DNA from: Planococcus sp. PAMC 21323
Lineage (GTDB): Bacteria > Bacillota > Bacilli > Bacillales_A > Planococcaceae
Direction: 5' to 3'
Assembly: GCF_000785555.1 (NCBI RefSeq)
Contig: NZ_CP009129.1
Coordinates: 3,038,001-3,102,000 of the forward strand
Length of the DNA: 64,000 nt
The notes below the pieces were generated by a model that worked only from the letters and a program-made list of their open reading frames with translations, did no database searches and was not told the origin of the DNA. Numbering within the stretch: position 1 is the stretch's first letter; every line of letters begins with the position of its first letter. The translations under genes were made by a program, and so were the position numbers. Below, one piece after another: positions 6,156 through 33,737 of the stretch.

Positions 6156-6215
6156 AAATAATCCTCCCCGATATCCCTAAATTCAAGGGTAAAAACATTT
6201 TTATTAAGCTCTTCC

Positions 6216-6908: not shown

Positions 6909-6950
6909 TATGAATAACTTTATAGATATAAGTACACAAGGGGGTTTACG

Positions 6951-9039: not shown

Positions 9040-9040
9040 T

Positions 9041-11452: not shown

Positions 11453-11632
11453 GATGAGATCTACCTTTCTTAGCTGAGCCATAATCATTTGATGACATTT
11501 TAGCATATTTGTACTTTTTGGAAGTTAAAGTAAGATAAAATTAAGTCTTTTTTATAGATATGGAATTATATACCTAGTTTATCATAGTAATTCTGACTTA
11601 TATATTCTTTCATAAAACTTATTTTACATACT

Positions 11633-11672
11633 AAAAAGTAGCTCCTATCTTAGTTGACGGGAGCTACTTTTT
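11633..11672 (-). terminator. Terminator of the lipoprotein gene
   Basis: The stem AAAAAGTAGCTCC pairs with GGAGCTACTTTTT around a 14-nt loop. It sits just after the stop at 11681 with a T-tail on the minus strand. Confidence 0.85.
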
Positions 11673-11680
11673 ATATGTTT

Positions 11681-12955
11681 TCATTTCGTAAATATCCAAA
11701 TATCCAATGTTGCTTTGTCAGTACCTGCAGCTAGTACAGCTTGTTGTTCGCTTGATACTGAAACGATGTTCGAACTTAGCGTTCCTTGTAATTGGAGCTG
11801 CTTTATTGGTTCAAATCCATTAATGGTTCTTTGAACGCTAACTAATGCATCTTTTCGCTGGCTAGGCACCCACAACTCTATTTGACCGTCGAAATCAGCA
11901 TCCAACGCCGTGTACATATCGAGATTTTTACTGCCAATCGAGTGTGTCGAGTATTCCTTTCCAGAAGCGATGACTTTTAATTGTTGATTTTGTTGATCCC
12001 ACTCTATAAATTGCAAGTTACCTCCTATATGAGGCGTGGTAATCTCCGCTAACTCCAAGTTCTCTGTAGAATTAAATGCATCAATGGTTAATGCATGTCT
12101 CCATCGATGACTCTGTCCGAGCGGTTGACCTTCAGCTAATTGCTTTCCGGTTTCATCATATAACACTAATCTCGCTCCTTCTTCATCATTACTCAATGTT
12201 AATATGATTTCTTTCGTTCCATTTTGATCCCAATCTATCCACAGTGGCTTTAAACTTTCAATTACATCGCTTTCAGGCACAGAGGCTTCGTAGATTACCG
12301 CTCTTTTATTGGCATCAATAATCGCAAAGCCGCTTGCTTCTGTTTTGTCTCCGAAAATACCATGATCATACCGAGTAGATGGTTGCGTTAGCACAAGAAC
12401 CCGATTATCGTCATCTGCTAATAAATATGAATCGGGAAGTGCATCAATCGTAATTCGCTTTACTTCCTGTTCACCATTCCAAAAAACCAAATCACCATTT
12501 GAGTCTACATATACAAATTCATCTTCTTTTGTTTGTAATAAAGTTGTCTCTAAGTTGCCTATCGGTTGTGGCAGTTCTGATTGAATAACCGTTTCTGACG
12601 ATGGTTTCACAAAAAAGCTTGAGAATTCTGGATTTTTTTCTTCAGTAATTTCTTTTACCTGTCCATTTTGCGTATTTACATCGAACCTTTGAATCTTCCC
12701 ATCTTCTAGCACAACAGACCATTCCATTTTTACGCCCACTCCGTTACTTTCAATATGAATGGGAATGCCCTTGAGGTCAATTTGCAGTTCTTTTAGTCCG
12801 CTAATATTGGATTTTTGTAAATCAGCTGTTTTGTTTGGTTCATCTGTTGACTCCGCATCTCGAACACTGTTTTCGCTTTGACTGAAATCCTTTTCTTCTA
12901 CACATCCTGATAATATAGCTAGTATTGCTAAAAGAACTATATGCAATTTTCTCAT
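11681..12955 (-). CDS. Predicted lipoprotein with VCBS/FG-GAP-like repeats, function unknown
   Basis: A 424-residue protein with a lipoprotein signal (MRKLHIVLLAILAILSGC; lipobox Cys at 18), so it should be anchored outside the membrane. A low-complexity acidic stretch follows. The C-terminal two thirds contain spaced Asp-rich segments (DANKRAV, DWDQNGTKEI, DADFDGQIELW) typical of VCBS/beta-propeller folds. I do not recognise a specific function. It is preceded by AAAGAGGTG and bounded by its own terminator, so it is probably monocistronic. Neighbours (katG, GGDEF-EAL) give no clear hint. Confidence 0.7.
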   Translation of the reverse strand: MRKLHIVLLAILAILSGCVEEKDFSQSENSVRDAESTDEPNKTADLQKSNISGLKELQIDLKGIPIHIESNGVGVKMEWSVVLEDGKIQRFDVNTQNGQVKEITEEKNPEFSSFFVKPSSETVIQSELPQPIGNLETTLLQTKEDEFVYVDSNGDLVFWNGEQEVKRITIDALPDSYLLADDDNRVLVLTQPSTRYDHGIFGDKTEASGFAIIDANKRAVIYEASVPESDVIESLKPLWIDWDQNGTKEIILTLSNDEEGARLVLYDETGKQLAEGQPLGQSHRWRHALTIDAFNSTENLELAEITTPHIGGNLQFIEWDQQNQQLKVIASGKEYSTHSIGSKNLDMYTALDADFDGQIELWVPSQRKDALVSVQRTINGFEPIKQLQLQGTLSSNIVSVSSEQQAVLAAGTDKATLDIWIFTK

Positions 12956-13040
12956 TTAGACACCTCTTTATGCTTATCGTAATAAATCCTCTACAAAATT
13001 AATGTAAGGCAGCTTACATCAGAAGTCTCTCTTTAACTTA

Positions 13041-13076
13041 AAAAAATCCTAGTCAGCAAACTGACTAGGATTTTTT
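13041..13076 (-). terminator. katG terminator
   Basis: A perfect 16-bp stem (AAAAAATCCTAGTCAG and complement) with a CAAA loop. The A/T ends make it potentially bidirectional. Confidence 0.9.
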
Positions 13077-13080
13077 CTAC

Positions 13081-15297
<2,217 letters not shown>

Positions 15298-15389
15298 CTA
15301 ACATAACCTCCTATTTAATAGTAAGAATAATCTGTCTTTTTGAAAGTCACGTACCCCTTTGTGATACTTTTGTGTAAATAATTATCACA

Positions 15390-15423
15390 TTAGAATTATA
15401 CTAAAGTGCAGAGAGACTGAACA
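15390..15423 (-). promoter_or_regulatory. katG promoter candidate with degenerate PerR box
   Basis: On the minus strand -10 TATAAT (15395-15400) lies 17 bp from a poor -35 TGTTCA (15418-15423). The overlapping 15-mer TTAGAATTATACTAA (15390-15404) matches the PerR consensus at 11 of 14 defined positions. PerR control of katG is plausible, but the site is much weaker than the one at ahpC. Confidence 0.45.
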
Positions 15424-15481
15424 GCAATAAGGTTACTGATGTAAAAGCGATCTTCGAAAAAAATATCTATAGTTACTAAAA

Positions 15482-15546
15482 GAAAAAAACTATGCGAAGT
15501 GCTTAAAAGTAAGAAGTTTACTTTTAAAACATCGCTATAGTTTTTG
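15482..15546 (-). terminator. Terminator of the 7TM-PAS-GGDEF-EAL gene
   Basis: Long interrupted stem: AAAAACTAT/ATAGTTTTT, GCGA/TCGC and AAAAGT/ACTTTT pair in order, and the minus-strand side ends in a T-run. Confidence 0.7.
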
Positions 15547-15567
15547 AGAGTTATTGCCCATTCATGA

Positions 15568-18012
15568 TTAAGTAACATCTATTCTACTTAACAAGCTAGC
15601 ATGATAGTTTTTGGCTAAAAACTTGCTCATTTTCTCTCCAGTTAAAGGCTCTGAGTACAAATAGCCTTGCACTTCGTTACAGCCAATCGACTTTAAATAT
15701 TCTTCTTGCTCTACCGTTTCGACTTGTTCTGCAAGTGACAGTAATTTTAAGTTTCTAGCCATGACAATAATCGTATCGATAATGGTTCTTGCCTTTTCAT
15801 CATGCTCGATATCCCGAATAAGAGAACCATCAATTTTCAATCGATCAATCGAAAAGTTTTTCAAATGATTTAACGAGCTATACCCTGTACCAAAATCATC
15901 CATACTAATCGAAATGCCAAGATGTCTTAACCTATCAAAAATATCTTTTGCATATTCTACATCTTTAATCGCTAGGCTTTCGGTTATTTCTAAGTCCAAG
16001 CGCTCAAAATTGTATCCCGTTTCTCTAAAAATTTCTTGAATCTTGCCGATAAAATTATGATGAAAAAATTGTTTAATCGATACGTTAACACTCAAATACA
16101 ACTCTTCGCACCCTTGCTCTTGCCAGCTTTTTACTTGTTTACTAGATTCGCACAATACCCATTCGCCTAACTCAATGATTAACTCACTATCTTCGACTAT
16201 CGCAATAAAATCGTCCGGCTTTATTAATCCCTCTTTTGGATGATTCCACCTGAGTAAAGCTTCTACACCAAACATTTTTCCAGTTGCATAGTCTATTTGC
16301 GGTTGATAATAAATCTCGAATTCTTTCTCTTTAACCGCTTTTCTAACGTCTGCCTCTAATGAGAGTTGTTTAGGGTTTATCTCTTTTAAATAATTATGAT
16401 AAAACTCATACATGTTTTTCCCTTTTTCTTTAGCACTGTACATAGCTGCATCAGCGAACTTCATCAAATCTTCACCATCTTGACTATCTTGAGGATACAT
16501 TGCGACTCCGATGCTCCCTGTTATGTAAAGTTCTTGATTTTGATTTCCTAAAAGGAATGGTGTTTGGATTTGAAGTAAAATATCTTCCAACTGCTTTTGA
16601 AACGCTTCGAAAACTGAGACATCAGGAAATAGAAAAGTAAACTCATCTCCACCTAACCTCGACACGATTACGTCTTTGTCTACTAGAGATCGGAATCGAT
16701 CAGCTAATACTTGTAGTAGTTGATCGCCTACTTGATGCCCTAAAATATCATTCACTAATTTAAAGCGGTCTAAATCTAAAAAGCAGACAGCCATTTGTGA
16801 ATAGGCAGTTGAAAAGGAAATTCTGCGGTCTAACTCTTCAACAAAAAATCGTCTGTTTGGCAAAAGAGTTAGTGGATCGTGATATGCCATATGGTGCATC
16901 TTTTCTCTCGCTTCCGCAATCTCTGTAATATCTTTTACAAAAACATTGATATGTGACAGCTCTTCATCTAGAAAATTTGGCACTAATGTAATTTGCACAT
17001 CGATGTGACTTTTAAACTTAGTAAGCAGTTTTGTTTCAAACATTTGCGAGTCGCCATTAAATGCAATTTCTAAGAAATTTGTGAATTCATCACGCTGAGA
17101 TTCATGAATCAAGTCTTTAAACGAAGCATATTTTCTTAGTTCCTCTGGGTGGAAACCTGTTATTTCTTTCGTAGCTTCATTCACTTTATTGATTTCACCT
17201 TTAGTATCTACAGAAAATATAGCAATCGCTTGGTTCTCAAAAAGTGCTTCATATTGGTGCTTATTTCGATAAATAAGCTCTCGTTGTTTTTCGCTATAAA
17301 GTTCAGATATAAAACTTGGAAACAGTTCTAAAAATACTAAGCCGAAGATGTTAATCGTTAATGGTAATAATGTGTTATTAAAGTAAATCCCATCGTAAAT
17401 CGGAACGTTATGATTACTAAACAAATCATATTGAGAATACAAAGTGATGCTAGAAAACAAAGTATACCTGATGCTTGCAAATGCAAGTCCAATAGCAACA
17501 CTTCCATAAATAATCCATTTCACGTGAATTTTCCCTATTTTTCTTAGCTGACGAATAAAGCGAAAGCTAGCTATTGTATTTCCTAATAGCAAAGTGTTCG
17601 CACCGATAAACAATAAGAGATTCAAATTCAAATTATTTTCTATCAATTCTCTTCTAAGATCAATAAAGTTGACTAAGCTAATGCAACTAGCAAAAACAAT
17701 AGAGCCGATAAGTAAGCGTTGAAATGTAACTTCTTTAAAACAAATTGTACTTACAGCTGTATAAACTGAAAAAGCACTAAATAAGATAATGGCTACGATT
17801 AAGGATAAATCAATTAATGTAAGAGCACCTGAAAAATAGGTATCGAGGTATGCAAAATAAATAATACATCCGACAACCAAAGAGGTTATACGTAATTTAT
17901 TTTTATTTTTATCCAAGAAATCAATTTTCATTATAAATTTGACACCTATAAAAGCAGCTAGACTGGCAACTACAATTGATAGCATGTAATCATTAAGTGA
18001 ATAGTAATCCAT
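15568..18012 (-). CDS. Multi-TM sensor PAS-GGDEF-EAL protein
   Basis: An 814-residue c-di-GMP protein. Residues 1-235 contain about seven membrane helices with no recognisable ligand motif. A PAS domain (about 250-370; YEALFENQAIAIFSVD) is followed by GGDEF (SRLGGDEF, 454-458) and EAL (GVEALLRW, 584-586; DFGTGYSSL). Both catalytic signatures are intact; no RxxD I-site. RBS AAAGAGG is upstream. The gene immediately upstream in the same direction is a close paralogue that shares the sensor, PAS and GGDEF parts but lacks EAL, so the pair arose by tandem duplication. Confidence 0.9.
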   Translation of the reverse strand: MDYYSLNDYMLSIVVASLAAFIGVKFIMKIDFLDKNKNKLRITSLVVGCIIYFAYLDTYFSGALTLIDLSLIVAIILFSAFSVYTAVSTICFKEVTFQRLLIGSIVFASCISLVNFIDLRRELIENNLNLNLLLFIGANTLLLGNTIASFRFIRQLRKIGKIHVKWIIYGSVAIGLAFASIRYTLFSSITLYSQYDLFSNHNVPIYDGIYFNNTLLPLTINIFGLVFLELFPSFISELYSEKQRELIYRNKHQYEALFENQAIAIFSVDTKGEINKVNEATKEITGFHPEELRKYASFKDLIHESQRDEFTNFLEIAFNGDSQMFETKLLTKFKSHIDVQITLVPNFLDEELSHINVFVKDITEIAEAREKMHHMAYHDPLTLLPNRRFFVEELDRRISFSTAYSQMAVCFLDLDRFKLVNDILGHQVGDQLLQVLADRFRSLVDKDVIVSRLGGDEFTFLFPDVSVFEAFQKQLEDILLQIQTPFLLGNQNQELYITGSIGVAMYPQDSQDGEDLMKFADAAMYSAKEKGKNMYEFYHNYLKEINPKQLSLEADVRKAVKEKEFEIYYQPQIDYATGKMFGVEALLRWNHPKEGLIKPDDFIAIVEDSELIIELGEWVLCESSKQVKSWQEQGCEELYLSVNVSIKQFFHHNFIGKIQEIFRETGYNFERLDLEITESLAIKDVEYAKDIFDRLRHLGISISMDDFGTGYSSLNHLKNFSIDRLKIDGSLIRDIEHDEKARTIIDTIIVMARNLKLLSLAEQVETVEQEEYLKSIGCNEVQGYLYSEPLTGEKMSKFLAKNYHASLLSRIDVT

Positions 18013-18220
18013 AATTAAACCTCTTTCCTAATCAATTACGCATGCTATAACAAAAAAACAATACACTCATCCTACTTTATAATTACTAACGATAATTTTG
18101 GGTTGATTTTCTTATTTTATGTATTATTAGAAGTAAACCTAATGAACTAAATTATATCCATAATACAGGTATAATCACCAAATTTCAATAGAAAATTCCG
18201 AAAAATCAGCAAAAATAAAG

Positions 18221-18265
18221 CATCTAGACAATTTTGAATGTCAAAATCAAAATTGAACAGATGCC
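18221..18265 (-). terminator. Terminator of the truncated GGDEF paralogue
   Basis: Two-tier hairpin: GCATCT/AGATGC and AATTTTGA/TCAAAATT are separated by 4-nt internal loops, with a T-rich tail on the minus strand. It lies about 80 bp past the stop at 18345. Confidence 0.7.
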
Positions 18266-18344
18266 TTTGCTTTAACTTGAAGAAACTACCACTTATTTCA
18301 AAATTTGATCGCACAATTACAGCAGTAATGCACTACCTACTATA

Positions 18345-20015
18345 TCAAACTTCTGCTTCCAAAAGAGACTCTTCGAAATTCTTCTCACTTAAGTAATCTT
18401 CATAAAATACATACCTATTTTTCCCATGTTCTTTAGCACTATACATTGCCATGTCCGCAAACTTCATTAGGTTATCACATGATTGACTGTCTTGAGGGTA
18501 TATAGCGATGCCTAGGCTACCTGTCACATGAAACTCTTGATCTTGATTCTCCAATAAGAAAGGGGTCTGAATTTGTATCAAAATCTCTTCTAATTGCTTT
18601 TTAAACTTTTCATTCTCCACAATATTAGGAAATAGGAAAGTAAACTCATCCCCTCCTAATCTTGCAATGACTACATCTTGATCAACGGTATTTCTAAATC
18701 GATCGGCCACTATTTTTAGCAATTGATCTCCTGCTTGATGTCCCAATGTATCATTCACTAACTTAAAGCGATCTAAATCTAAAAAACAAACGGCCATTTT
18801 CGATTGACTATGAGATTTAGCGATCTGTCGATTCAACTCTTCTACAAAAAACCTTCTATTCGGTAGCAGCGTCAGGGAATCATGATAAGCCATGTAGTGT
18901 ATTTCTTCTCTTGCTTCTGCAATTTCAGATATATCTTTCGCAAATATATTAATATGTGTCAGTTTTTCTTCTAAGAAAATTGGTAGTAAAGTAATTTGCA
19001 CATCCACTGGCGTTTGAAGTTTAGTTACTAGTTTTGTCTCAAACATTTGGGATTCACCATGAAATGCTATTGTCAGTAGATGTATAAAATTTTCCTTTTG
19101 TGTCTCGTGGATCAGCTCACTAAAACAAGCTAAGCCTTCTAGTTCTTCTGAGTCGAAACCCGTCATTTTTTTAGCAATTTCATTTACTTTCGTTATTTTC
19201 CCTTTTTCATTTAACGATAAGATGGCAACTGCTTGGTTTTCGAAAAGCGCTTCATACTGATATTTGTTTTGATAAATAAGCTCTCTTTGTCTCTCGCTAT
19301 AAACATCAGACACAAAGTTGGGGAATAACTCTAAAAACACTAATCCAAAAATATTAATCGCCAGTGGCAGTAGAGTATGATCATTATAAAAAAAGTTTAA
19401 TAATGGAATGCCTTGATAACCAAATAAGTCGACGTTCGAAAATAAAGTGATACTAGAGAAAAGCGTAAACCGAATGCTTGAGAATGCTAGGCCAATAGCA
19501 ATACTCCCATATATGAGCCAGCTAATTTTTACTTTCCCCAACTTTCTAAGTTGACGGATAAATCGAAACGTGGCTATTGTGTTCCCCAATAATAAAAGGT
19601 TTGCACTAATAAATAACCATAGATTCATTTTAAGATTTTGTGCAATCATCTCTGTTCTAATATCGATTAAGTTTACTAAGCTAATGCAACTAGCAAATAT
19701 TAATGCACCAACTACTAGACGACGAAATGAAACTTCTTTGTTGGTAATTGTATTTATTGCTAGATAAACTGCACCAGAACTAAACAGAATGACCAATACA
19801 ATAAACACCCAATTGACAGATGAACGTATATCCGAAAAATAAGAATTGAGAAATGCATAATAAATCATCATACCGAAAACTAAAGAAACAATACGTATTT
19901 TATTTCTGCTTTTCTTGTTTACATTTACTTTTATGATAAAACTAACACCTATGAATGAAGCGATACTCGCTATTACTACTGATAATACATAATCACTAAA
20001 GGTATAGTAATCCAT
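18345..20015 (-). CDS. Multi-TM sensor PAS-GGDEF protein, EAL-less paralogue
   Basis: A 556-residue tandem paralogue of the downstream 814-residue protein: same MDYY start, same seven-TM region, PAS, and GGDEF (ARLGGDEF). The reading frame ends at LLEAEV, aligning with SLEADV at the first residues of the paralogue's EAL domain; after the TGA no EAL similarity remains in any frame I read. It is therefore either a diguanylate cyclase-only derivative or a decaying copy. Start ATG 20015 has GAGGGTG upstream; the 33 codons before it are lysine/isoleucine-rich and not conserved with the paralogue. Confidence 0.85.
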   Translation of the reverse strand: MDYYTFSDYVLSVVIASIASFIGVSFIIKVNVNKKSRNKIRIVSLVFGMMIYYAFLNSYFSDIRSSVNWVFIVLVILFSSGAVYLAINTITNKEVSFRRLVVGALIFASCISLVNLIDIRTEMIAQNLKMNLWLFISANLLLLGNTIATFRFIRQLRKLGKVKISWLIYGSIAIGLAFSSIRFTLFSSITLFSNVDLFGYQGIPLLNFFYNDHTLLPLAINIFGLVFLELFPNFVSDVYSERQRELIYQNKYQYEALFENQAVAILSLNEKGKITKVNEIAKKMTGFDSEELEGLACFSELIHETQKENFIHLLTIAFHGESQMFETKLVTKLQTPVDVQITLLPIFLEEKLTHINIFAKDISEIAEAREEIHYMAYHDSLTLLPNRRFFVEELNRQIAKSHSQSKMAVCFLDLDRFKLVNDTLGHQAGDQLLKIVADRFRNTVDQDVVIARLGGDEFTFLFPNIVENEKFKKQLEEILIQIQTPFLLENQDQEFHVTGSLGIAIYPQDSQSCDNLMKFADMAMYSAKEHGKNRYVFYEDYLSEKNFEESLLEAEV

Positions 20016-20210
20016 ATGAACACCCTCTTCTAACCTTTCACACCCATAGGGGCAACAGATTTTTTGTTTTTTTATCGTTTTTTTATAAATAAAAAAACCT
20101 TTAATTAAATACATTAATTACATACACCTATATATTAATAAACAAAATAAAACTTAATACCTAAATAACATTTATTTTACAGGTGTTGTTTATAAAAATC
20201 AACAAAAAAA

Positions 20211-20250
20211 CTGCCAAACAAAAGTAGATCATTCCACTTTTGTTTGGCAG
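20211..20250 (-). terminator. Terminator of the DUF4317 gene
   Basis: A perfect 15-bp stem (CTGCCAAACAAAAGT and complement) with a 10-nt loop is followed by seven T on the minus strand. Confidence 0.9.
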
Positions 20251-20268
20251 TTATTCCGCGCGAGATAT

Positions 20269-21462
20269 TTACTCGATTAAGTCTTCTGAAATCAATTTAA
20301 ATCCTTCAATCATCGTATCTTCTTCTACTTCAATTAATACACAACGTTTACCATTGTAATTAACTTGTTTGACGTAACGTAAGTCTTGAGGATTTATCGC
20401 AATATCCGCTACTTTCGTACTGATTTTAATTGATTTCGAAGTGTAACTAGGCACAATATGGCTAGCCTTCATTTCGTAGGTTTTGTCTTCAACCACTTGC
20501 TGAAATGCTCGTTCTACTTTTTCTGTACTAATATCTTTCATGCCGCTCGCTTTTAATACACGCTCTACTTCTTTAACGTCCATCATAGGAGTTTCTTCAT
20601 CGTCATCGTCACTTTCAGCTTCAATGACTAACATCTGATTGATTTCATCGTATACACCTGCAAGTGTTCTCGAATCAACTTCGTCTCCAATCACTGCTTT
20701 GACAATTTCCTCGAATACCGCTTTGTCTTCTTCAGCTGTAACGATCTCATCTCCATTTAATACATTTTCGATAAATTGGAAATCTGGCTTGTTTGTTTTT
20801 CCAGCGGAATACAAAATGCGATTGATGTCTGCCGCATTGTCCGTAAAGCTTGGGAACAAGAAACCACCAATTGGCGAAGATAGTTTAATAACTGGATCGA
20901 CTAGTATATTCGATTTAAATTCTTTTTCCACAAAATCAAATACCAGTGAACTTTTCGGCAGTTCGGTTTGGTTCATGCTGCTTAAAATAAATGGAGTGGT
21001 GTAAGTCTCATCTCGAAAATCCATTTCAGATTCATCTGATTTACGTTTTGTGGTTTTATGGTAGTTCCCACGAATAAACGTAATGACTATATCCTTTTCG
21101 TATTGAACATCTTGAACCATCTTTAAAGCAATTTGTTGCATGTTTTCTTTCCATTCTGCGACTTCTTTTGCTTCAAGTCCCTCGTATAATAAATGTTGCG
21201 TATGGTCTTTTTGTCCTTCTTCTTGTGGTTGGAATTTCACTTCAAATAGCTTAATATCCAGTTTTCCACCTAATACTTTTTTGAAATTGGCAAGAAAAAG
21301 TTCTTGTTGTTCTCGGTCTAATAAAGAAAATGACCGACTTTCCTCATGGTAAATTTCACTACTTTCCTGCTGAATATACACGTTATAAATGTCACCGATT
21401 TTCAGTAGATCGGAGTCTACTTTAAATCGTTTGCGAATATCTGCTATGTCTTTGTTATTCAT
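20269..21462 (-). CDS. DUF4317 family protein
   Basis: A 397-residue soluble acidic protein beginning MNNKDIADIRKRFKVDSDLLKIGDIYNVYI, which I recognise as the DUF4317 family of Bacillota. No signal peptide, membrane segment or catalytic motif is evident. An acidic run (ESDDDDEET) lies near residue 290. RBS GGAG is upstream and it has its own terminator, so it is probably monocistronic. Function is unknown. Confidence 0.75.
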   Translation of the reverse strand: MNNKDIADIRKRFKVDSDLLKIGDIYNVYIQQESSEIYHEESRSFSLLDREQQELFLANFKKVLGGKLDIKLFEVKFQPQEEGQKDHTQHLLYEGLEAKEVAEWKENMQQIALKMVQDVQYEKDIVITFIRGNYHKTTKRKSDESEMDFRDETYTTPFILSSMNQTELPKSSLVFDFVEKEFKSNILVDPVIKLSSPIGGFLFPSFTDNAADINRILYSAGKTNKPDFQFIENVLNGDEIVTAEEDKAVFEEIVKAVIGDEVDSRTLAGVYDEINQMLVIEAESDDDDEETPMMDVKEVERVLKASGMKDISTEKVERAFQQVVEDKTYEMKASHIVPSYTSKSIKISTKVADIAINPQDLRYVKQVNYNGKRCVLIEVEEDTMIEGFKLISEDLIE

Positions 21463-21499
21463 CTTTTCTCCAACTCCCTAACTAAATCTGTATGACCCA

Positions 21500-21544
21500 A
21501 AAAAGAGTATCAAAGCCGTAGGTTCGCTTTTGATACGCTCTTAT
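21500..21544 (-). terminator. Terminator of the GNAT gene
   Basis: The stem AAGAGTATCAAAGC pairs with GCTTTTGATACGCTCTT with slight mismatch, and six T follow on the minus strand. Confidence 0.75.
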
Positions 21545-21572
21545 TATAACAATGATTAAAGCAAACGAATGG

Positions 21573-22085
21573 TTACTCCACTAAATTATGAGGCATAAAA
21601 TAAATGAATTCATCATCTTCCTTTTCGAGTAAAACAAACCCTACTTTTTCTAATAATTGAATAGATGCTCTGTTTTCTAACGCGACACTAGCCTTTATTT
21701 TGAATTCACCTTGTTTTTTGACCCAGTGAATAACCGTATTCACCATTTCAAAAGCATATCCTTGCCTTTTAACTAGCGGACTTATTGTATAGCCAATCCA
21801 GTAAGTATTCGCTTCTTTTTTCAAAAAAATATCTCCAACAAGAGTTTGGTCAGTTTTTCGGATGATTGCAAGTTGGATTCCATTTTCCACAACCGGTTGT
21901 TTCAACAAGGCTTCTTCGTAGTCTTTTCTTGCCAACCCTTTAAAGCCCTGGAACTTCATCCACTCTAGATCATTTCGATACAACATAAAAGCATCAAGGT
22001 CTGATTCGATAAAGGGTCTTACAAAACATCGCTCAGACTCAATCAGCAAGTTTTGGTTATCATTTATCATGTCCTCTTTCGTCAT
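21573..22085 (-). CDS. GNAT family N-acetyltransferase (RimJ/RimL-like)
   Basis: A 170-residue acetyltransferase. The beginning (LLIESERCFVRPFIESDLDAFMLYRND) and the acetyl-CoA region (ISPLVKRQGYAFEMVNTVIHWV, then SIQLLEKVGFVLLE) fit the RimJ/RimL branch of GNATs. The substrate cannot be told from sequence. GGGAAGG precedes the start. It follows the deaminase gene by about 76 bp with no clear terminator between, so the two may be co-transcribed. Confidence 0.8.
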   Translation of the reverse strand: MTKEDMINDNQNLLIESERCFVRPFIESDLDAFMLYRNDLEWMKFQGFKGLARKDYEEALLKQPVVENGIQLAIIRKTDQTLVGDIFLKKEANTYWIGYTISPLVKRQGYAFEMVNTVIHWVKKQGEFKIKASVALENRASIQLLEKVGFVLLEKEDDEFIYFMPHNLVE

Positions 22086-22161
22086 TTTTTACCTTCCCTT
22101 CATACGAATCAATAGACACGAAAAGCACATCTCTGTAGCACCCATAATTGAATCGATTATT

Positions 22162-22644
22162 TTACTGCTTTGCATCAAACGAACGTTGGTGAAGTTTGTG
22201 CACCTGCTCGGCTAGCTCCGCAACGGGACCATCTACTACCGCATCCTTAATAACCTCTCCAATAGCTAAATTTCGAACGCGTGAAGGCGCTGCTCCCATA
22301 TCACTTAGCCAGTCGGTTAGTTGCTTAGAAGAGCTTGCATAAACGATTCTTCCCAAACCTACCCATCCATGAGCTGCTGCACACATTGGACAGTGTTCTC
22401 CCGACGTATAAACCGTTGCTTTGCTTCGTTCTTCAAGTGGTAAATGGTTTGCTGCCCATCGTGCAATTGTAAATTCAGGATGTTGTGTATGATCGCCTCC
22501 TGCTACGTGGTTATGATCCTCAAAGAGAACGTCTCCTGTAACTGAAACGAGAACCGAACCAAATGGCTCATCGCCTTTTTCTAAAGCTATTCCCGCTAAT
22601 TCCACACACCGCTTTAAATAAATTAAATCCGTTTCACTAATCAT
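22162..22644 (-). CDS. Cytidine/deoxycytidylate-type (nucleoside/guanine) deaminase
   Basis: A 160-residue zinc deaminase of the CMP/dCMP superfamily. The zinc/proton-shuttle motif is H55-P56-E57 (TQHPEFTIARWA) and the second metal motif is C85-x-x-C88 (GEHCPMCAAAHGW). The HPE variant instead of HAE suggests a divergent subgroup, so tRNA adenosine, guanine or another amino-purine substrate cannot be decided. The ATG has AAGGAGG upstream, directly preceded by a GAAGTAA tandem repeat (22656-22716) that must lie in the leader or promoter. Confidence 0.78.
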   Translation of the reverse strand: MISETDLIYLKRCVELAGIALEKGDEPFGSVLVSVTGDVLFEDHNHVAGGDHTQHPEFTIARWAANHLPLEERSKATVYTSGEHCPMCAAAHGWVGLGRIVYASSSKQLTDWLSDMGAAPSRVRNLAIGEVIKDAVVDGPVAELAEQVHKLHQRSFDAKQ

Positions 22645-22655
22645 TTTCTTCCTCC

Positions 22656-22716
22656 TTACTTCTTACTTCTTACTTCTTACTTCTTACTTCTTACTTCTTA
22701 CTTCTTACTTCTTACT
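22656..22716. repeat. Heptanucleotide tandem repeat (TTACTTC, 8.7 copies)
   Basis: Eight exact copies plus TTACT. On the minus strand the unit is GAAGTAA and the array ends a few bases before the AAGGAGG of the deaminase gene. The unit length is not a multiple of the helical turn, so copy-number change would alter promoter/RBS spacing. It is not a CRISPR: there are no spacers. Confidence 0.95.
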
Positions 22717-22758
22717 GAATAATCTACCTTAATGTTCCACTAGCATACCCCAAACTCA

Positions 22759-22802
22759 AAAAACGGACAGCAAAAAAGAGTTTCTTTTTCGCTGTCCGTT
22801 TT
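22759..22802 (-). terminator. Terminator of the synthase/GGDEF-EAL operon
   Basis: AAACGGACAGC pairs with GCTGTCCGTTT around a 19-nt loop with A/T flanks. It closes the operon ending at 22830 and leaves only about 40 bp for a deaminase promoter. Confidence 0.8.
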
Positions 22803-22829
22803 ATTTGATTGGCTTACTGAAAAGTTATT

Positions 22830-25160
22830 TCATTTCACAGGTACTTCAACTGTTTCTACGACTACCGCAAAATTATCATCCACTTTTTCAACATCCCACT
22901 CTGTCCGATCGAGTAAGTTTGCTATTTGATCTACAGGCACTGGCCGGCTGAAATAATAGCCTTGTGCTAGGTCGCACCCTTCTTCTTTAAAGTAATTATA
23001 TTGTTCTAAAGTTTCTACGCCTTCAGCAACAGACTTTAAATCCAACTTCTGTGCCAAACTAATAATTGTAGAAATAATAGAGTTGGTTTTTTTATTTTTA
23101 GATAGATTTCTAATAAAGGATTGATCAATTTTGATAGAGTCGATTGGAAGATCCTTTAAGTAAGATAAGGAAGAGTAACCCGTTCCAAAATCATCAATCG
23201 AGATTCGAACCCCTAGCTTTTTCAATTTATTCATAATGGCTATCATCGATTCAGTATTTTCTAGGAAAACACTTTCGGTTAACTCAAGTTCTAATATGTT
23301 CGGATCTAACCCTGTTTCCTCGAGAACCTGTTGGACAGTATCCACGATATCATTATTCACAAATTGTTTGACTGACAAGTTCACAGCTATATGGAAAGGA
23401 CGACCATACGTATCGTTCCATTGTACCGCTTGTTTACAGGCCGTTCTTAGCACCCATTCTCCTATTGGAATGATTAATCCCGTTTCTTCTGCAATCGGAA
23501 TAAAGCGATCAGGTGGAACGATTCCCCACTCTGGGTGGATCCAACGAATAAGCGCTTCTGCCCCATACATACACCCTGTTTTCGGATCGATCTGCGGTTG
23601 GTAGTACATGACTAACTCATTATTTTCTAGCGCGTTATGAAGATTTTCTTCAAGGTTGACTCGTTCTTCAAAAGAGCTATTCATCGAGTTCGTAAAGAAC
23701 TTGTAATTGTTCCCGCCTAATACTTTACTATTGTACATAGCAATATCCGAATTTTTTATCAATGACTCTATATTCTCACCATCTGAAGGATAAAAACTAA
23801 TGCCAATACTAGATCTCAAATATAGTTCATGCTGATCGATAAAAATCGGCTTACGAATTTCTTCTAAAATCCTCTCTACGATACGAGAAACTTCAAACTT
23901 CGTTCTTCCTAATAATATAACGGTAAATTCATCTCCACCTATACGAAACACAATATCTCCTCTAGAAACGCAACTGTTTAATCGTTTTGCGATTTGCTGC
24001 AAGAGTTTATCACCAACTGTATGGCCACGCGTATCATTTACCATTTTGAATTTATCTAAATCAATAAATAATACAGCAATTTCCTGTTCTAATTCCACAA
24101 AGCTATTTAGTTTCTCTGTAAACTGCAGACGATTAGGAAGTCCCGTTAAGTTATCGTGATAGGCCAGATAGGTACTTTCCTCTTCGGCTTTTTTGCGATC
24201 AGTAATATCCTGGATGGCACAAATAGACATCTTCTTTCCTTCTCTTTCTACAAAGTTCACATTGATTAATGTAGAAATGATATGTCCTTCTCGATCGACT
24301 AGCTCTGCTTCAAAGTTATGAATCGGGGTTCTTTTTAGAAAGCCTTTAAGCAAAGTCATTCGGCGACGTTCAGAAGGTGCCAATAAATCGAGTAAATACT
24401 GCTGTTCTGTCCCAAAAAGTTCATTTGATGCTGGATTGGTTTCCAAAATTTGATGATCTTCTTGAGCAACAATAATCGGTACAGGTACCAAGTTGAACAT
24501 ATTACTCAAAAACTCGCCTTTGTCACGGTTCTCTGCCTCAGCAATTCGGCGTAACTTGTTTTGAAAAAATGTTTTGCGGTTTGCCTGTTCTAAAATGTTT
24601 CCGCCTACGATACAAGTTCCAACAAGCACCCAAAGAAGTAAAGAAAGTATTTCAACTTCACTTGTGCCTATTAATGTAACTTGATAGATGATCACATAGC
24701 TTAGGGTAATTGGAACCGCAATTTTAAATCTTTGTCTCAGTATAAAGAATGCAAACATACTGACTATAATTATTCCACAAATCGATAGAATATAATTATC
24801 TAATACAATTTGACCTATATAAACTACACTCATCCCTGCAAAGCCATTGGAGATTGCTGTCATAAGCTGATGGTATTTTGAAAGGCGATTTGAAGATAAA
24901 ACTAGTAAATTCAACGTAAATATAGGGTATAAGACAAAAAATATCACCTTAGCAATGTGCGGGTACTCTGGTTGTATATTAATATACGAGAATATAACCA
25001 AAGTAAGCCAGGCAAAGTAAGACAAGGCTATACCTAGTTTATTAAACACTCGTACTTCATTGTCATTTATAGATTTAAATTCATTTTCTAGTGAACGGTC
25101 CCGAAAACTTAAGGTCATTGGATGAAAAGACAATACAAGTTGATTTTTATTATTGTTCAT
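22830..25160 (-). CDS. Multi-TM sensor PAS-GGDEF-EAL protein coupled to an oxoamine synthase
   Basis: A 776-residue c-di-GMP protein: five to six membrane helices (about 42-190), PAS (about 215-325), GGDEF (FRIGGDEF, 408-412), EAL (GAEALIRW, 535-537; DFGTGYSSL). Both active sites look intact and there is no canonical RxxD site. ATG 25160 lies 4 nt after the TGA of the synthase gene and has no strong Shine-Dalgarno, so translation is probably coupled. The membrane sensor is therefore a candidate receptor or effector for whatever the synthase makes; this is inference from gene order only. Confidence 0.88.
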   Translation of the reverse strand: MNNNKNQLVLSFHPMTLSFRDRSLENEFKSINDNEVRVFNKLGIALSYFAWLTLVIFSYINIQPEYPHIAKVIFFVLYPIFTLNLLVLSSNRLSKYHQLMTAISNGFAGMSVVYIGQIVLDNYILSICGIIIVSMFAFFILRQRFKIAVPITLSYVIIYQVTLIGTSEVEILSLLLWVLVGTCIVGGNILEQANRKTFFQNKLRRIAEAENRDKGEFLSNMFNLVPVPIIVAQEDHQILETNPASNELFGTEQQYLLDLLAPSERRRMTLLKGFLKRTPIHNFEAELVDREGHIISTLINVNFVEREGKKMSICAIQDITDRKKAEEESTYLAYHDNLTGLPNRLQFTEKLNSFVELEQEIAVLFIDLDKFKMVNDTRGHTVGDKLLQQIAKRLNSCVSRGDIVFRIGGDEFTVILLGRTKFEVSRIVERILEEIRKPIFIDQHELYLRSSIGISFYPSDGENIESLIKNSDIAMYNSKVLGGNNYKFFTNSMNSSFEERVNLEENLHNALENNELVMYYQPQIDPKTGCMYGAEALIRWIHPEWGIVPPDRFIPIAEETGLIIPIGEWVLRTACKQAVQWNDTYGRPFHIAVNLSVKQFVNNDIVDTVQQVLEETGLDPNILELELTESVFLENTESMIAIMNKLKKLGVRISIDDFGTGYSSLSYLKDLPIDSIKIDQSFIRNLSKNKKTNSIISTIISLAQKLDLKSVAEGVETLEQYNYFKEEGCDLAQGYYFSRPVPVDQIANLLDRTEWDVEKVDDNFAVVVETVEVPVK

Positions 25161-25164
25161 ATGC

Positions 25165-26451
25165 TCACATAACTCTATGCATATCAACTAATCTATTTTC
25201 TTTAATTCCACTAACTTGATGTTTGCCACAAACCTCTTCTAAAGCATTTACTGTATAATCAATCTGCTCTTTTGTATGATTGTAGTTGACGATTAACCTA
25301 ATTCTTCCTTGGTTCATTTTCACAGCAGGAAAAACAATAGGAGTAGAATAAACACCCATATGATAAAGGTCATTGACGACCAATCTCAATTTATTATGAT
25401 CCTCAATAAATACGGGAATAATCGGGCTCTCGCTGCTTCCAAGGTCAAATCCTTTAGATATTAATGAATTTCGCATGTAGTTACTTTTAGCATGCAGTTC
25501 ATGAATTAATGAAGGATTGTTTTCTATCTCTTCAAGTGCTGCCAAAACCACTGCAGCATCTGCAGGTGTTAAACAGGCTTGGAATAAATAAGAATCGGAA
25601 AACCGGAGCAATGAACAATATTTCTTGTCTGCTGCAAGAAAACCACCAATAGAAGCTGTTGCTTTCGATAACGTAGACATAATAAAATCAACTTCACTAC
25701 TTACCCCTTGCTCATAACAATACCCTTGTCCTTTGTCTCCATAAATACCGAATGTATGTGCTTCATCAACGTATAGATAAAAATTATGCTTCTGCTTTAA
25801 CCTTACCATTTCTTTCAATGGAGCTAAATCGCCACTCATTGAATAAGCTGACTCAATAACCACAAAAATATTTTCAAATGAATCTTGATATCTTGCTAAC
25901 TTCTTTTCAAGATCCACAACATCGTTGTGTTTAAATGGAACCCATTTTCTAGCATTAGATAGCTTTATACCGTTAATGATAGATGAATGACTCTCGCGAT
26001 CAAAAAGAATAAGATCTTTGCTACCTACTAACATTGAAATAGCACCTAAATTTGCAGTAAATCCTGTTGGGAAAAGAACAGCACTTTCTTTTCCAGTCAT
26101 TTCACTTATCTTTCGCTCTATATCTTTGTGTAAAGTTGTCATTCCACAAGAAGAGGCAGAAGTTCCAGCCCCAGTACCAAACTGACTTAAAGCGCGAGTC
26201 GCTTTTTCAATGACATTCTTATTTCTATTTAAACTAAGATAATGATTCACATTCCATAAAATACATTCTTTTTTTTCACCTGTTTGTTCTGTAATAACGT
26301 TCATTAAAGTAGCAGGACCACTTTCTAAATATCGGTCATATTCATTATCTACCTCAACAAAACTATGAATTGTTTTAGCTCTTTCCTCTAAATCAGTGAC
26401 ATCTTTTAAATAAGTAAGGACTTCCCCAATTGAAGCAAAGTTATTCGTCAT
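25165..26451 (-). CDS. Alpha-oxoamine synthase family PLP enzyme (BioF/KBL/SPT/CqsA-like)
   Basis: A 428-residue fold-type I PLP enzyme. The PLP lysine is K263 (STLSKATASIGGF). D229 and H232 are in VDEAHTFG and H155 in DRESHSS. These enzymes condense an acyl-CoA with an amino acid and release CO2 (biotin, threonine degradation, sphingoid bases, CAI-1-type autoinducers). About 60 extra N-terminal residues and the unusual GTGAGTSASSCG loop argue against a housekeeping BioF or KBL, and no bio or tdh genes are nearby. The partner is a GGDEF-EAL gene. GGGGGT precedes the ATG. Product unknown. Confidence 0.85.
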   Translation of the reverse strand: MTNNFASIGEVLTYLKDVTDLEERAKTIHSFVEVDNEYDRYLESGPATLMNVITEQTGEKKECILWNVNHYLSLNRNKNVIEKATRALSQFGTGAGTSASSCGMTTLHKDIERKISEMTGKESAVLFPTGFTANLGAISMLVGSKDLILFDRESHSSIINGIKLSNARKWVPFKHNDVVDLEKKLARYQDSFENIFVVIESAYSMSGDLAPLKEMVRLKQKHNFYLYVDEAHTFGIYGDKGQGYCYEQGVSSEVDFIMSTLSKATASIGGFLAADKKYCSLLRFSDSYLFQACLTPADAAVVLAALEEIENNPSLIHELHAKSNYMRNSLISKGFDLGSSESPIIPVFIEDHNKLRLVVNDLYHMGVYSTPIVFPAVKMNQGRIRLIVNYNHTKEQIDYTVNALEEVCGKHQVSGIKENRLVDMHRVM

Positions 26452-26490
26452 TATAAAACCCCCGTCGTATATTTTTAAAATATAATTTAT

Positions 26491-26546
26491 TAGTACTATC
26501 GTAACTATTCATAGTGCTATTGTAACACTGTTGTAAATTTATTCAA
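26491..26546 (-). promoter_or_regulatory. Promoter and two-copy operator of the synthase/GGDEF-EAL operon
   Basis: On the minus strand -35 TTGAAT (26541-26546) and an extended -10 TGTTACAAT (core 26519-26524) have a 16-bp spacer. Two 15-mers, TAGTACTATCGTAAC (26491-26505) and TAGTGCTATTGTAAC (26512-26526), differ at two positions and have a 21-bp period, two helical turns. One copy covers -10 and the other lies just downstream of the expected start, an arrangement typical of repressor binding. Confidence 0.6.
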
Positions 26547-28662: not shown

Positions 28663-29460
28663 TTAACCATTTGATAACTCCTTAAAATCTGGAATGGTCG
28701 GATTGCTCAAGTAATGTCCGCCTTCTACTTTAATCGTTTGACCTGTAATAAACTTCGATTCATCAGAAGCAAGGAATAGCACTGTGTTTCCGATATCATC
28801 TGGTTCGCCGTGGTATGGCAGTTGATTGTATCTCATAAACGTATCTAAAAGCTCTGGAGATAAACTGTTTTTTGCAGCTGGCGTTAAAATTAATCCAGGT
28901 GCAACTGCGTTGCAACGAATATTTTGCTTGCCGTATTGAGTGGCAATGTATTTTGTTAAGTTAACCACACCTGCCTTTGATGCCCCGTATGCTGAACGAA
29001 CCGAGTCGCCTGCAAATCCAGCCATAGACGTCGTATTAATAATTGCACCGCCACCATCTTTAATCATATGGGGAATCGCAAATCGACTTCCAAGAAGAAC
29101 GCTCTTCAAGTTCAAATTCATCAAGCGGTCCCATTCTTCAAGATCCAAATTGACCACATCGATATCCTTTTTCAAGTTAGTTCCGCCAACATTATTCACC
29201 AACACGTTGATTTTTCCATATTGTTCTACCGTGTACTCAACCGCTTCTTGAATTGAGCTTTCTTTGCTTGCATCAAGGAAGATCCCTAGCGCATCGCCGC
29301 CTTGTTCGTTAATCTGTTTTGCCGCTTCTTTCGCGCCTTCTAGATTAAAGTCTGCAATGACGACTTTTGCTCCTTCTTTTGCTAATAAATTAGCTGACGA
29401 AAGTCCAATTCCAGAAGCTCCACCTGTAACTAACGCTACTTTGTTTTTTACTCTAGCCAT
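28663..29460 (-). CDS. Short-chain dehydrogenase/reductase (glucose-dehydrogenase-like)
   Basis: A 265-residue classical SDR. The nucleotide motif is TGGASGIG near residue 13, NNVGG is the NNAG equivalent, and the catalytic Ser/Tyr/Lys are in NTTSMAGF and YGASKAG. The C-terminus (GQTIKVEGGHYLSN) is standard. It is probably an NAD(P)-dependent sugar or alcohol oxidoreductase. GAGGAG precedes the start. It is the second gene of an SDR pair whose following permease gene has decayed; substrate unknown. Confidence 0.85.
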   Translation of the reverse strand: MARVKNKVALVTGGASGIGLSSANLLAKEGAKVVIADFNLEGAKEAAKQINEQGGDALGIFLDASKESSIQEAVEYTVEQYGKINVLVNNVGGTNLKKDIDVVNLDLEEWDRLMNLNLKSVLLGSRFAIPHMIKDGGGAIINTTSMAGFAGDSVRSAYGASKAGVVNLTKYIATQYGKQNIRCNAVAPGLILTPAAKNSLSPELLDTFMRYNQLPYHGEPDDIGNTVLFLASDESKFITGQTIKVEGGHYLSNPTIPDFKELSNG

Positions 29461-29481
29461 TGTTCATTCTCCTCTTCAAAT

Positions 29482-30231
29482 TTAACGTAATTTCACACTA
29501 CCGCCATCTACCATAAGCGTTTGCCCCGTAATAAAGTCTGCATCTTCACTTGCTAAAAAGACTGCTGCTCTTCCAATATCCCCTTCAGGATCGCCAATGC
29601 GACGAAGCGGAATATTATTAATCATGGCTTCATACATTTCTGGTGCATTGTCTCGCCATTGTTCTACTCCAGATGTTAATGCGATTGGAGAAATAATGTT
29701 GACGTTGATGCCGTCTGGTCCCCATTCGTTTGAAGTCACACGCGAAATCGCGCGTATTGCTTCTTTTGCAGCTGCGTATGAGGTTTGTGTGTTTTGTCCG
29801 TTTATGCCCGCTCCTGATGCAAAGTTAATTACTTTTCCTTTGTTTTTCTTTAACTCTGGATAAGCTGCTTGCATAAAGTGAACCGTCGGATAAAAGCCTG
29901 TGTTAAACGATAAATCAAATTGTTCTTGCGTCGTTTCAATAAACGATGCTTGTTGCGATGCATGTGCGTTATTGACTAAAATATCGAGCGTTCCAAACTC
30001 CGCTACCACATCACTGACAATTTGTTGCACATTTTCTTTTACCGCTATATCTCTAATGAATAGAGCGCCTTTCGTGTACTGATTGATTTCTGCTAAAGTT
30101 TCTTGTCCTTTTTCCTCATTGATATCGACAATTGCAATATGTGCGCCTTCTTTAGCCATTGCAAGAGCAATTCCTCTGCCGATCCCTGAAGCACCGCCTG
30201 TAATGATTCCAACTTTTCCTTCTAGTTTCAT
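29482..30231 (-). CDS. Short-chain dehydrogenase/reductase
   Basis: A 249-residue classical SDR: TGGASGIGRG cofactor motif, NNAHA, catalytic Ser in NFASGAG and YAAAKEA, C-terminal TGQTLMVDGGSV. ATG 30231 is chosen because GAGTG lies 6 nt upstream; the in-frame ATG at 30249 lacks an RBS. It is first in an operon with the next SDR (21-bp gap). The promoter carries a palindrome like the one at the MarR gene. Substrate not identifiable. Confidence 0.85.
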   Translation of the reverse strand: MKLEGKVGIITGGASGIGRGIALAMAKEGAHIAIVDINEEKGQETLAEINQYTKGALFIRDIAVKENVQQIVSDVVAEFGTLDILVNNAHASQQASFIETTQEQFDLSFNTGFYPTVHFMQAAYPELKKNKGKVINFASGAGINGQNTQTSYAAAKEAIRAISRVTSNEWGPDGINVNIISPIALTSGVEQWRDNAPEMYEAMINNIPLRRIGDPEGDIGRAAVFLASEDADFITGQTLMVDGGSVKLR

Positions 30232-30258
30232 TCTATTCACTCTTTCCATATGAAATAT

Positions 30259-32519: not shown

Positions 32520-33737
32520 ATGGCAGGAAACAGAGCGGTTGTATACAGAGGTGCTGGAACTGTAACAGTTGAAGATATTAGCTACCCTGAATTAATCATC
32601 AGAGACGGTCCCGGGGTAAATCCATTGAATGTAGGGCGTAAATGTGAACATGGCGTGGTTGTAAAAGTTGTTACTACGAATATTTGCGGAAGTGATCAAC
32701 ACATGGTGCGCGGCCGGACGACAGCTCCTGAAGGGCTTGTACTCGGCCACGAAATCACAGGAGAAGTCATTGAAGTCGGCCGTGATGTTGAATTTATCAA
32801 AAAAGGGGACCTGGTGTCTGTTCCATTTAATATTGCTTGTGGCCGCTGCCGCAGCTGTAAAGAACAAGACACACATATTTGCGAGAACGTAAATCCGGAT
32901 CGTCCTGGATCTGCTTATGGCTACGTAGACATGGGCGGATGGGTCGGCGGGCAATCGGAATATGTGATGGTCCCTTACGCAGATTTCCAGTTGCTGAAAT
33001 TTCCGGATAAAGATCAAGCGATGGAAAAAATACTGGATTTAACGATGCTTTCCGATATTTTCCCGACAGGCTACCACGGCGCTGTGAGTGCGGGTGTGAA
33101 ACCAGGAGCTACTGTTTATGTTGCCGGGGCTGGTCCTGTAGGTTTAGCCGCTGCCCACTCTGCTCAACTACTGGGTGCATCTGTTGTCATCGTGGGGGAT
33201 TTAAACAAAGAGCGCCTTGCACAGGCTCATAGTTTCGGCTGTGAAACTGTCAACCTTCGGGAACATGCGAACCTTGCGGAACAAATTGCTCAAATCTTAG
33301 GCGTCCCAGAAGTGGATTGCGCCATTGATTGTGTAGGCTTTGAAGCTAGTGGACATGGCGAAGGAGCCGGAGAAGCACCGGCTACCGTATTAAATTCCAT
33401 TATGGAAGTTACTCGTGCAGGTGGACGTCTTGGTATACCAGGCCTTTATGTAACCGGTGATCCTGGCGCTGCTGACCAAGATGCTCAAAATGGAACCTTG
33501 AAGGTACGCTTAGGACTTGGCTGGGCAAAAGCTCACACGTTTGTGACGGGCCAAACTCCGGTTATGAGATACCATCGTGACTTGATGAAATCGATTTTAA
33601 GCGGAAGAGCACAAATTGCCAAAGCAGTAAACGCAACGGTCATTACGTTGGATCAATCACCAGAGGCATACGCTGAATTTGACCAAGGGGCTTCCAAGAA
33701 GTTCGTCATTGATCCTCATGGGCATTTTAAAAAGTAG
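32520..33737 (+). CDS. fdhA: Glutathione-independent formaldehyde dehydrogenase (zinc ADH family)
   Basis: A 405-residue medium-chain zinc dehydrogenase resembling Pseudomonas putida formaldehyde dehydrogenase/dismutase, oxidising formaldehyde to formate with NAD. Catalytic zinc ligands C56, H77 and D179 (ICGSDQH, VLGHE, LSDIFPTGYHG) and the structural cysteines C107, C110, C113 and C121 are all present. The Rossmann motif is VAGAGPVGLAAA. An RBS (TAGGAG) precedes the ATG. It is divergent from hxlR. Base composition is visibly richer in GGC/CGG codons than its neighbours, so transfer from another lineage is possible. Confidence 0.92.
   Translation: MAGNRAVVYRGAGTVTVEDISYPELIIRDGPGVNPLNVGRKCEHGVVVKVVTTNICGSDQHMVRGRTTAPEGLVLGHEITGEVIEVGRDVEFIKKGDLVSVPFNIACGRCRSCKEQDTHICENVNPDRPGSAYGYVDMGGWVGGQSEYVMVPYADFQLLKFPDKDQAMEKILDLTMLSDIFPTGYHGAVSAGVKPGATVYVAGAGPVGLAAAHSAQLLGASVVIVGDLNKERLAQAHSFGCETVNLREHANLAEQIAQILGVPEVDCAIDCVGFEASGHGEGAGEAPATVLNSIMEVTRAGGRLGIPGLYVTGDPGAADQDAQNGTLKVRLGLGWAKAHTFVTGQTPVMRYHRDLMKSILSGRAQIAKAVNATVITLDQSPEAYAEFDQGASKKFVIDPHGHFKK

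Follow-up and report, generated by a model that had tools for sequence, protein, structure and literature searches.

A Planococcus alpha-oxoamine synthase gene beside a membrane GGDEF-EAL gene: a possible pairing of a signal synthase with a second-messenger enzyme, with relatives next to CqsS-type cyclases

In Cqs quorum sensing, the synthase CqsA joins S-adenosylmethionine (SAM) or 2-aminobutyrate with decanoyl-CoA, and the ketone is detected by CqsS (PMC3376566, accessible part). Here, we describe a gene pair in 64,000 nucleotides of Planococcus sp. PAMC 21323 (contig NZ_CP009129.1, forward-strand positions 3,038,001 to 3,102,000; this whole stretch is called the window below), in which an alpha-oxoamine synthase (AOS) gene is followed by a gene for a membrane PAS-GGDEF-EAL protein with predicted cyclic di-GMP (c-di-GMP) turnover. 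The most likely reading, to which we give about even weight for and against, is that a signal synthase works together with a second-messenger enzyme acting as its receptor. The pair resembles CqsA/CqsS and LqsA/LqsS in that the gene of an AOS-family synthase is paired with that of a multi-helix membrane sensor. It differs in that the synthase clade stands apart from CqsA/LqsA, the Planococcus sensor bears no detectable likeness to CqsS, and the predicted output is not a histidine kinase but c-di-GMP turnover in Planococcus or a class III cyclase in Fibrobacterota, the phylum of a metagenome-assembled genome (MAG) titled Fibrobacteria bacterium. The likeness extends further in the Fibrobacterota, where the sensor, a neighbour of the synthase in three of four loci, is homologous to that of CqsS and one cassette holds a CqsA-like synthase.

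A second comparison concerns cyclases. In the accessible part of PMC4821796, a laboratory chimera of CqsS with the Rv1625c adenylate cyclase is regulated by CAI-1, and the CqsS cluster is described as histidine-kinase domains. The function of the adenylyl cyclase transmembrane domain has been called a blind spot of signal transduction (PMC12414865, accessible part), and the CqsS chimera is, in the available text of both papers, a main argument that cyclase membrane domains can be receptors (PMC4821796, PMC12414865). The Fibrobacterota proteins naturally have the same order of domains, a CqsS-type domain and then a putative class III cyclase, whereas the chimera of PMC4821796 is a laboratory construct that was assayed with CAI-1. 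In the openly licensed literature, we found no paper linking an oxoamine synthase with GGDEF, nor CqsS with Fibrobacter.

Both Planococcus genes are intact, and their coordinates bear out the arrangement given in an earlier note on this DNA, with the synthase followed after 4 nt by the membrane PAS-GGDEF-EAL gene:

26519..26546, minus strand: promoter-like site 5' of the AOS gene, TTGAAT-16-TACAAT, with TG before the second hexamer
25165..26451, minus strand: AOS gene, 428 aa, uncharacterised clade, product possibly a signal or lipid synthase; start codon ATG at 26451, stop codon ends at 25165
26140..26181, minus strand: substrate-loop motif FGTGAGTSASSCGM, aa 91-104, usual Arg absent
25663..25665, minus strand: codon of Lys263, by alignment the lysine for pyridoxal 5'-phosphate (PLP), in TLSK
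25161..25164, minus strand: 4-nt gap from the AOS stop to the GGDEF-EAL start, equally long in P. halocryophilus (L039) and in genome G006 (L070)
22830..25160, minus strand: membrane PAS-GGDEF-EAL gene, 776 aa (ATG at 25160, stop ending at 22830)
24513..25160, minus strand: sensor domain at the N-terminus (aa 1-216) that probably spans the membrane with six helices and matches no Pfam family
24204..24512, minus strand: PAS domain, aa 217-319 (Pfam)
23709..24164, minus strand: GGDEF domain, aa 333-484, motif GGDEF intact (Pfam)
22941..23648, minus strand: EAL domain, aa 505-740, motifs intact (Pfam)
22760..22802, minus strand: intrinsic-terminator-like stem-loop of 20 pairs, 3' of the GGDEF-EAL gene

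It is about as probable as not that the two genes form one operon and a self-contained signalling module. Four terminator-like sites were found (2.4 expected, sd 1.6), none of them at the junction of the two genes, and promoter-like sites were at background (19 found, 16.1 expected, sd 3.7). The weak ribosome-binding site GTGAG was the sole candidate seen by eye upstream of the GGDEF-EAL gene, in agreement with the earlier statement that this gene has no strong site of its own. The reported lack of biotin, threonine and sphingolipid neighbours likewise stood, with none among the 19 open reading frames that have 90 aa or more and lie wholly or partly in 16-33 kb (seven checked with profile libraries, the remainder by eye).

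The synthase is a fold type I PLP enzyme of the alpha-oxoamine synthase family (Aminotran_1_2, PF00155, 163 bits). The catalytic residues found by alignment, His155, DEAH at 229-232 and Lys263, were kept in all four rows of one alignment and line up with the structure 3a2b; we take them to be the stacking His, the motif holding the catalytic Asp and the PLP lysine, respectively. Residues 1-53 to 1-58 fell outside the region matched by most curated models, consistent with the atypical N-terminus that had been pointed out before. The highest-scoring of these models was that of Bacteroidota serine palmitoyltransferase (SPT; NF047600, 326.3 bits against a cut-off of 640), and the closest solved structures were SPTs (3a2b, E 3.7e-73), with CqsA far lower (E 7.2e-30). 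Despite this likeness, the window AOS scored about half the curated cut-off, lacks the Arg of the GSR loop, carries an extra N-terminus, has no sphingolipid genes in sight and did not group with the SPT rows in trees.

Other identities were rejected on scores as well: SPT-beta (NF047599, 320 bits against 500), BioF (TIGR00858, 313.7 against 426.45, with no biotin gene in the open reading frames at 16-33 kb), ALAS (TIGR01821, 251.5 against 338.55), KBL (TIGR01822, 245.5 against 493, and apart from the KBL rows in the tree) and CqsA/LqsA (NF005526, 198.9 against 428). In trees of 29 and 31 AOS rows, the window AOS and nine relatives formed one group with support of 100/100. This clade was separate from the KBL, PigH-type (a label given by eye or annotation, not by profile) and CqsA/LqsA rows and from the SPT rows, which were scattered and did not themselves form one group; deeper branching was without resolution. 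Approximately unbiased (AU) tests rejected none of the topologies that joined the clade with alpha-hydroxyketone (AHK), Bacteroidota SPT, KBL, BioF or PigH rows (p 0.11-0.47). Joining gave p 0.474 for the CqsA/LqsA rows, which were a separate group in the tree, and 0.36 for the Bacteroidota SPT rows. The earlier proposal depended on a synthase outside the BioF and KBL clades, and scores and trees both placed it there, with joining to either not formally rejected (AU p 0.11-0.26).

The substrate loop also sets the clade apart. The loop Arg was present in 16 of 19 AOS rows outside the clade (as GSR, SVR, AVR, GTR, GCR or GAR) and was replaced in all ten clade rows by TSA with S, A or M as the next residue, or by TPAV, so the atypical loop FGTGAGTSASSCGM remarked on in the earlier note is real. 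CqsA, the CqsA-like L141 and Thermincola_other_L057 were the three other rows without this residue, and two other hydroxyketone synthases likewise lacked it. Since the loss is common to the clade and hydroxyketone synthases, yet occurs also in one other Thermincola AOS, it is to be taken as no more than a hint.

The partner is, by its domains and signature motifs, a GGDEF-EAL enzyme of c-di-GMP metabolism with both domains intact: PF00990 and PF00563 scored 158.4 and 275.8 bits, both above the Pfam cut-offs, and the motifs GGDEF, EALIRW, DDFGTGYSS and AEGVET were found at aa 408, 535, 656 and 712. The PAS domain was barely above its cut-off (24.3 against 22.6 bits). The sensor domain probably has six transmembrane helices, as suggested by a structure model with six long helices and a poor mean predicted local distance difference test (pLDDT) score of 48.5. 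No homology of this domain was detected to CqsS or to the Fibrobacterota cyclase sensor (best E 1.5, against the CqsS profile), nor to the two other GGDEF membrane proteins of the window that were tested. Alignments of the Planococcus and cyclase sensor domains gave no match at E 1 among PDB sequences.

The pair behaves as one cassette in Planococcus, judging from gene content and order. The AOS clade was found in three of 46 genomes of the genus (>840 bits), the other 43 holding only more distant AOS at E 1e-60, and in three of 261 genomes of the family. The sensor domain (aa 1-216) occurred in exactly the same three, and the other 258 yielded neither a clade AOS nor this domain. Among 398 Bacillota genomes, the sensor domain was found in one, that of the window itself; a MAG labelled Thermincola, which holds a clade AOS, was probably covered by that sample. 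The two genes lay 4 nt apart in 3/3 genomes, one per species, so that adjacency is not a peculiarity of this strain, as the earlier note had allowed it might be: all three Planococcus genomes with either part have both side by side. The neighbourhood survey that the note had called for in Planococcaceae gave a divided answer, with pair and spacing kept in three species and wide conservation absent (3/261).

The surroundings of the pair were compared by tblastn rows of >50% identity, except for the synthase; several of the neighbouring genes carry labels assigned by eye or taken over from annotation. In two relatives (G045 and G011), the flanking deaminase and nucleoside hydrolase genes were 946 and 935 nt apart without the pair between them, and the intergenic stretch gave chance-level matches to the pair (best E 0.14); in a third relative (G008), the nucleoside hydrolase was missing at that place. 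G006 had the same two flanks as the window, and in G009 the pair was intact, the deaminase was not found and other genes stood on that side. Both genes were under purifying selection (dN/dS, the ratio of nonsynonymous to synonymous rates, 0.07-0.09, Nei-Gojobori), with sensor-domain dS reaching 1.4-1.5, near saturation. The sensor was the most diverged part, with 70-71% identity, vs 90-93% for the GGDEF and EAL domains. Searches by tblastn with the window GGDEF and EAL domains found neither in 34 Planococcus loci of about 4 kb around other AOS/aminotransferase genes.

In the Fibrobacterota, the clade was found in 4/167 genomes, and in all four a gene for a protein with an acyl carrier protein (ACP)-like domain and a receiver domain lay directly downstream of the AOS. 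A membrane cyclase gene was divergent to the clade AOS in three of the four. The cassettes are as follows:

L067, 2184-8365 (G814): class III cyclase with CqsS-type sensor, with AOS and ACP-like/receiver genes adjoining
L068, 8023-12366 (G815): the same
L069, 4680-12953 (G816): the same
L141, 2960-8647 (G657, contig 212): CqsA-like synthase, three ACP-like/receiver genes, cyclase and a C-terminal fragment of a clade AOS, in a different gene order

The sensor domain of these cyclases occurred in 10/167 Fibrobacterota genomes, including all four with a clade AOS. By profile comparison, it is homologous to the sensor domain of CqsS: five CqsS-type domains compared with ten cyclase sensor domains gave an hhalign probability of 99.1 (E 1.2e-17), and all ten cyclase sensor domains matched the CqsS profile at E 3.4e-12 to 0.011 (Z 1000), although one of these ten "cyclases" (L142) had no Pfam cyclase match. 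The five CqsS-type kinases came from plasmid records of Cupriavidus, Vibrio, Rhodanobacter, Dyella and Polaromonas, and that of Cupriavidus lay directly behind an alpha-hydroxyketone synthase scoring 580 bits against the CqsA/LqsA cut-off of 428. Controls were at chance level (reversed sequences, best E 1.4; Planococcus domain, best E 1.5), as were the window's two other GGDEF membrane domains. One cyclase sensor domain searched against the plasmids by tblastn gave no match, and profile comparison was needed for the CqsS link.

The receiver domain of the downstream protein was matched by Pfam in the three proteins scanned, and the fourth was 64% identical to one of them. Its N-terminal domain gave profile matches to NodF (E 0.0098, the best in the PDB) and RhiE (E 0.056). 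DSL is the usual motif of acyl carrier proteins, and by eye its Ser looks absent here. A fold search with a single-sequence model of this protein (mean pLDDT 51.7) gave nothing below E 0.014; the top matches were mostly receivers, and the N-terminus matched nothing. The synthase of the L141 cassette had NF005526 as its best model (300 bits against 428) and CqsA as its best PDB match (E 2.9e-52), and the synthase slot can thus hold a CqsA-like enzyme. Near the cassettes of G814, G816 and G817, a giant protein with many HAMP-like repeats was seen by eye.

Beyond these genomes, the clade is scattered. In the Bacillota sample, 14 genomes passed E 1e-95, of which two were counted as clade (>850 bits) and 12 as other AOS (321-350 bits); the second clade genome was, judging from matching coordinates, the Thermincola MAG (67% identity), the only one of ten genomes in its order to hold the clade. 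Among plasmids, two of ten records at E 1e-60 were clade members (Rhizobium rhizoryzae and Photobacterium damselae, 47 and 48% identity), and the other eight, at 35.7-39.3% identity, were not; the Photobacterium plasmid was typed as conjugative. No clade member was found in a phage collection (best identity 33.5% over the 19 records that reached E 1e-20) or, by pattern-based scans, in a viral collection. This scattered distribution suggests horizontal transfer.

Several of these loci carry other features. The Rhizobium plasmid AOS (L060, 11851-13137) lies among phage tail, holin, lysozyme and ParA genes, possibly on a phage-plasmid, and that of Photobacterium (L061, 11866-13173) among genes for hypothetical proteins, a double helix-turn-helix regulator and insertion sequences. 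The Thermincola MAG has an HD-domain gene, HD-GYP-like by eye, 6.3 kb from its AOS. In a Legionella lytica plasmid (L072, 3869-8740), the genes directly behind an AOS gene are annotated as phosphosulfolactate synthase and 2-phosphosulfolactate phosphatase, which points to a lipid derived from cysteate. In the window itself, two short-chain dehydrogenase/reductase (SDR)-like genes were seen by eye at 28663-30249, 2.2-3.8 kb upstream of the pair, and the nearest alcohol-dehydrogenase-like gene (by eye) at 32520-33737, about 6 kb from the AOS. Short direct repeats of CTTACTT-like units lie at 22650-22716 between the deaminase gene and the operon terminator (by eye). Tandem paralogues at 15568-20114, 64% identical over most of their length, comprise a full PAS-GGDEF-EAL gene and a copy ending just before EAL.

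We propose the following mechanism. The AOS would condense an amino-acid-type substrate (or SAM, like CqsA) with a fatty acyl thioester into a lipophilic amino-ketone or hydroxyketone, which may dissolve in or cross the membrane. The probably six-helix sensor domain of the partner would bind this product, a step proposed for Planococcus by analogy, and the ligand-bound partner would shift the balance between c-di-GMP synthesis by GGDEF and breakdown by EAL. Such a system would be akin to Cqs/Lqs quorum sensing with a c-di-GMP enzyme replacing the histidine kinase as receptor. In the Fibrobacterota, the product of the clade AOS would go to a class III cyclase that carries its own CqsS-type receptor domain, and the ACP-like/receiver protein would be a further component. 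The earlier suggestion that a second-messenger enzyme is coupled to a signal synthase is in part borne out, with independent support from the Fibrobacterota, where the clade AOS adjoins a CqsS-sensor cyclase; homology of the Planococcus sensor to CqsS was not supported.

A number of observations weigh against this proposal. As judged by model scores, SPT rows fit the CqsA/LqsA model at least as well as the AOS does: 200.7-226.9 bits were reached by four rows of SPT or SPT-like enzymes, whereas the true members L144 and L143 reached 580.5 and 478.3, and with 199 bits against a cut-off of 428 CqsA/LqsA membership of the AOS is not supported. Because the Planococcus sensor is unrelated by sequence to CqsS and the cyclase sensor as far as tested, its ligand step is an argument by analogy. 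The structure models are poor both for this sensor and for the ACP-like/receiver protein. The pair may have been gained just once by the three Planococcus genomes, in which case 3/3 would not be three independent events, and the counts over Fibrobacterota genomes likewise ignore kinship. No cyclase was found in the 8 kb upstream of the clade AOS in G657; the cassette of G817, laid out as in G815, has a synthase of another type (nearest PRK07505, 279 against 342 bits); and in the Thermincola MAG and the Rhizobium and Photobacterium plasmids no second-messenger enzyme stands beside the AOS. Finally, of 21 GGDEF matches in the genome, five fall in the 64-kb window within about 19 kb (5070-24164), and in so GGDEF-rich a region adjacency to a GGDEF gene is in itself weak evidence.

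The AOS could instead make a structural or specialised lipid, such as a sphingoid-like base, a sulfonolipid-like compound or another amino-ketone, with the GGDEF-EAL protein reporting membrane state or adjusting c-di-GMP along with the lipid, and no cell-cell signalling. We regard this as rather unlikely, though SPTs are the best solved-structure matches, the Bacteroidota SPT model ranks first (326 against 640 bits) and a membrane-embedded sensor would also suit a membrane lipid. The two SDR-like genes at 28663-30249 could act on a ketone product, but in the two further Planococcus loci they are not neighbours of the pair. No ACP, acyl-CoA ligase or acyl-AMP ligase gene was recognised by eye beside the AOS in the three Planococcus loci, whereas five SPT- or prodigiosin-type AOS loci on plasmids have an ACP gene in 5/5 and an acyl- or AMP-ligase gene in 4/5, and the Fibrobacterota relatives of the clade sit among signalling genes.

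The information might also flow the other way, with a local c-di-GMP pool of the GGDEF-EAL protein controlling how the AOS product is made or used (in cell-surface traits or the biofilm matrix, for instance) and an unrelated ligand for sensor and PAS. It is common for proteins of the GGDEF type to act on a single output, 21 GGDEF matches are present in the genome and the PAS domain may sense something else; this account, which we consider improbable, leaves unexplained that the sensor domain goes with this AOS alone in 261 family genomes and that CqsS-type cyclases stand beside relatives. That the two genes are chance neighbours with no functional link appears very improbable. A window with five of the genome's 21 GGDEF matches would favour it, and the persistence of the pair could reflect shared ancestry, given that the window and G006 share both flanks; but the spacing is the same in three species, the two parts are present or absent jointly over 261 genomes, the pair is intact in G009 where the flank has changed, and the 34 control loci held no GGDEF or EAL match.

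A signal synthase whose receptor doubles as a second-messenger enzyme remains our preferred account. More tentatively, at somewhat below even weight, we see in a Gram-positive genus and in the Fibrobacterota a possible class of cell-cell signalling in which an AOS-made ketone would be read directly by membrane second-messenger enzymes, a c-di-GMP enzyme in Planococcus and natural fusions of a CqsS-type domain with a class III cyclase in the Fibrobacterota. These loci place a synthase of the right family beside natural CqsS-domain class III cyclases, and in Planococcus beside a membrane GGDEF-EAL protein, and they offer concrete gene pairs for a ligand search. If the account is true, a Gram-positive genus would join the users of ketone-type signals, whose outputs would come to include c-di-GMP and cyclic nucleotides, and the Fibrobacterota fusions would count as natural cases of a cyclase with a membrane anchor gated by a ligand.

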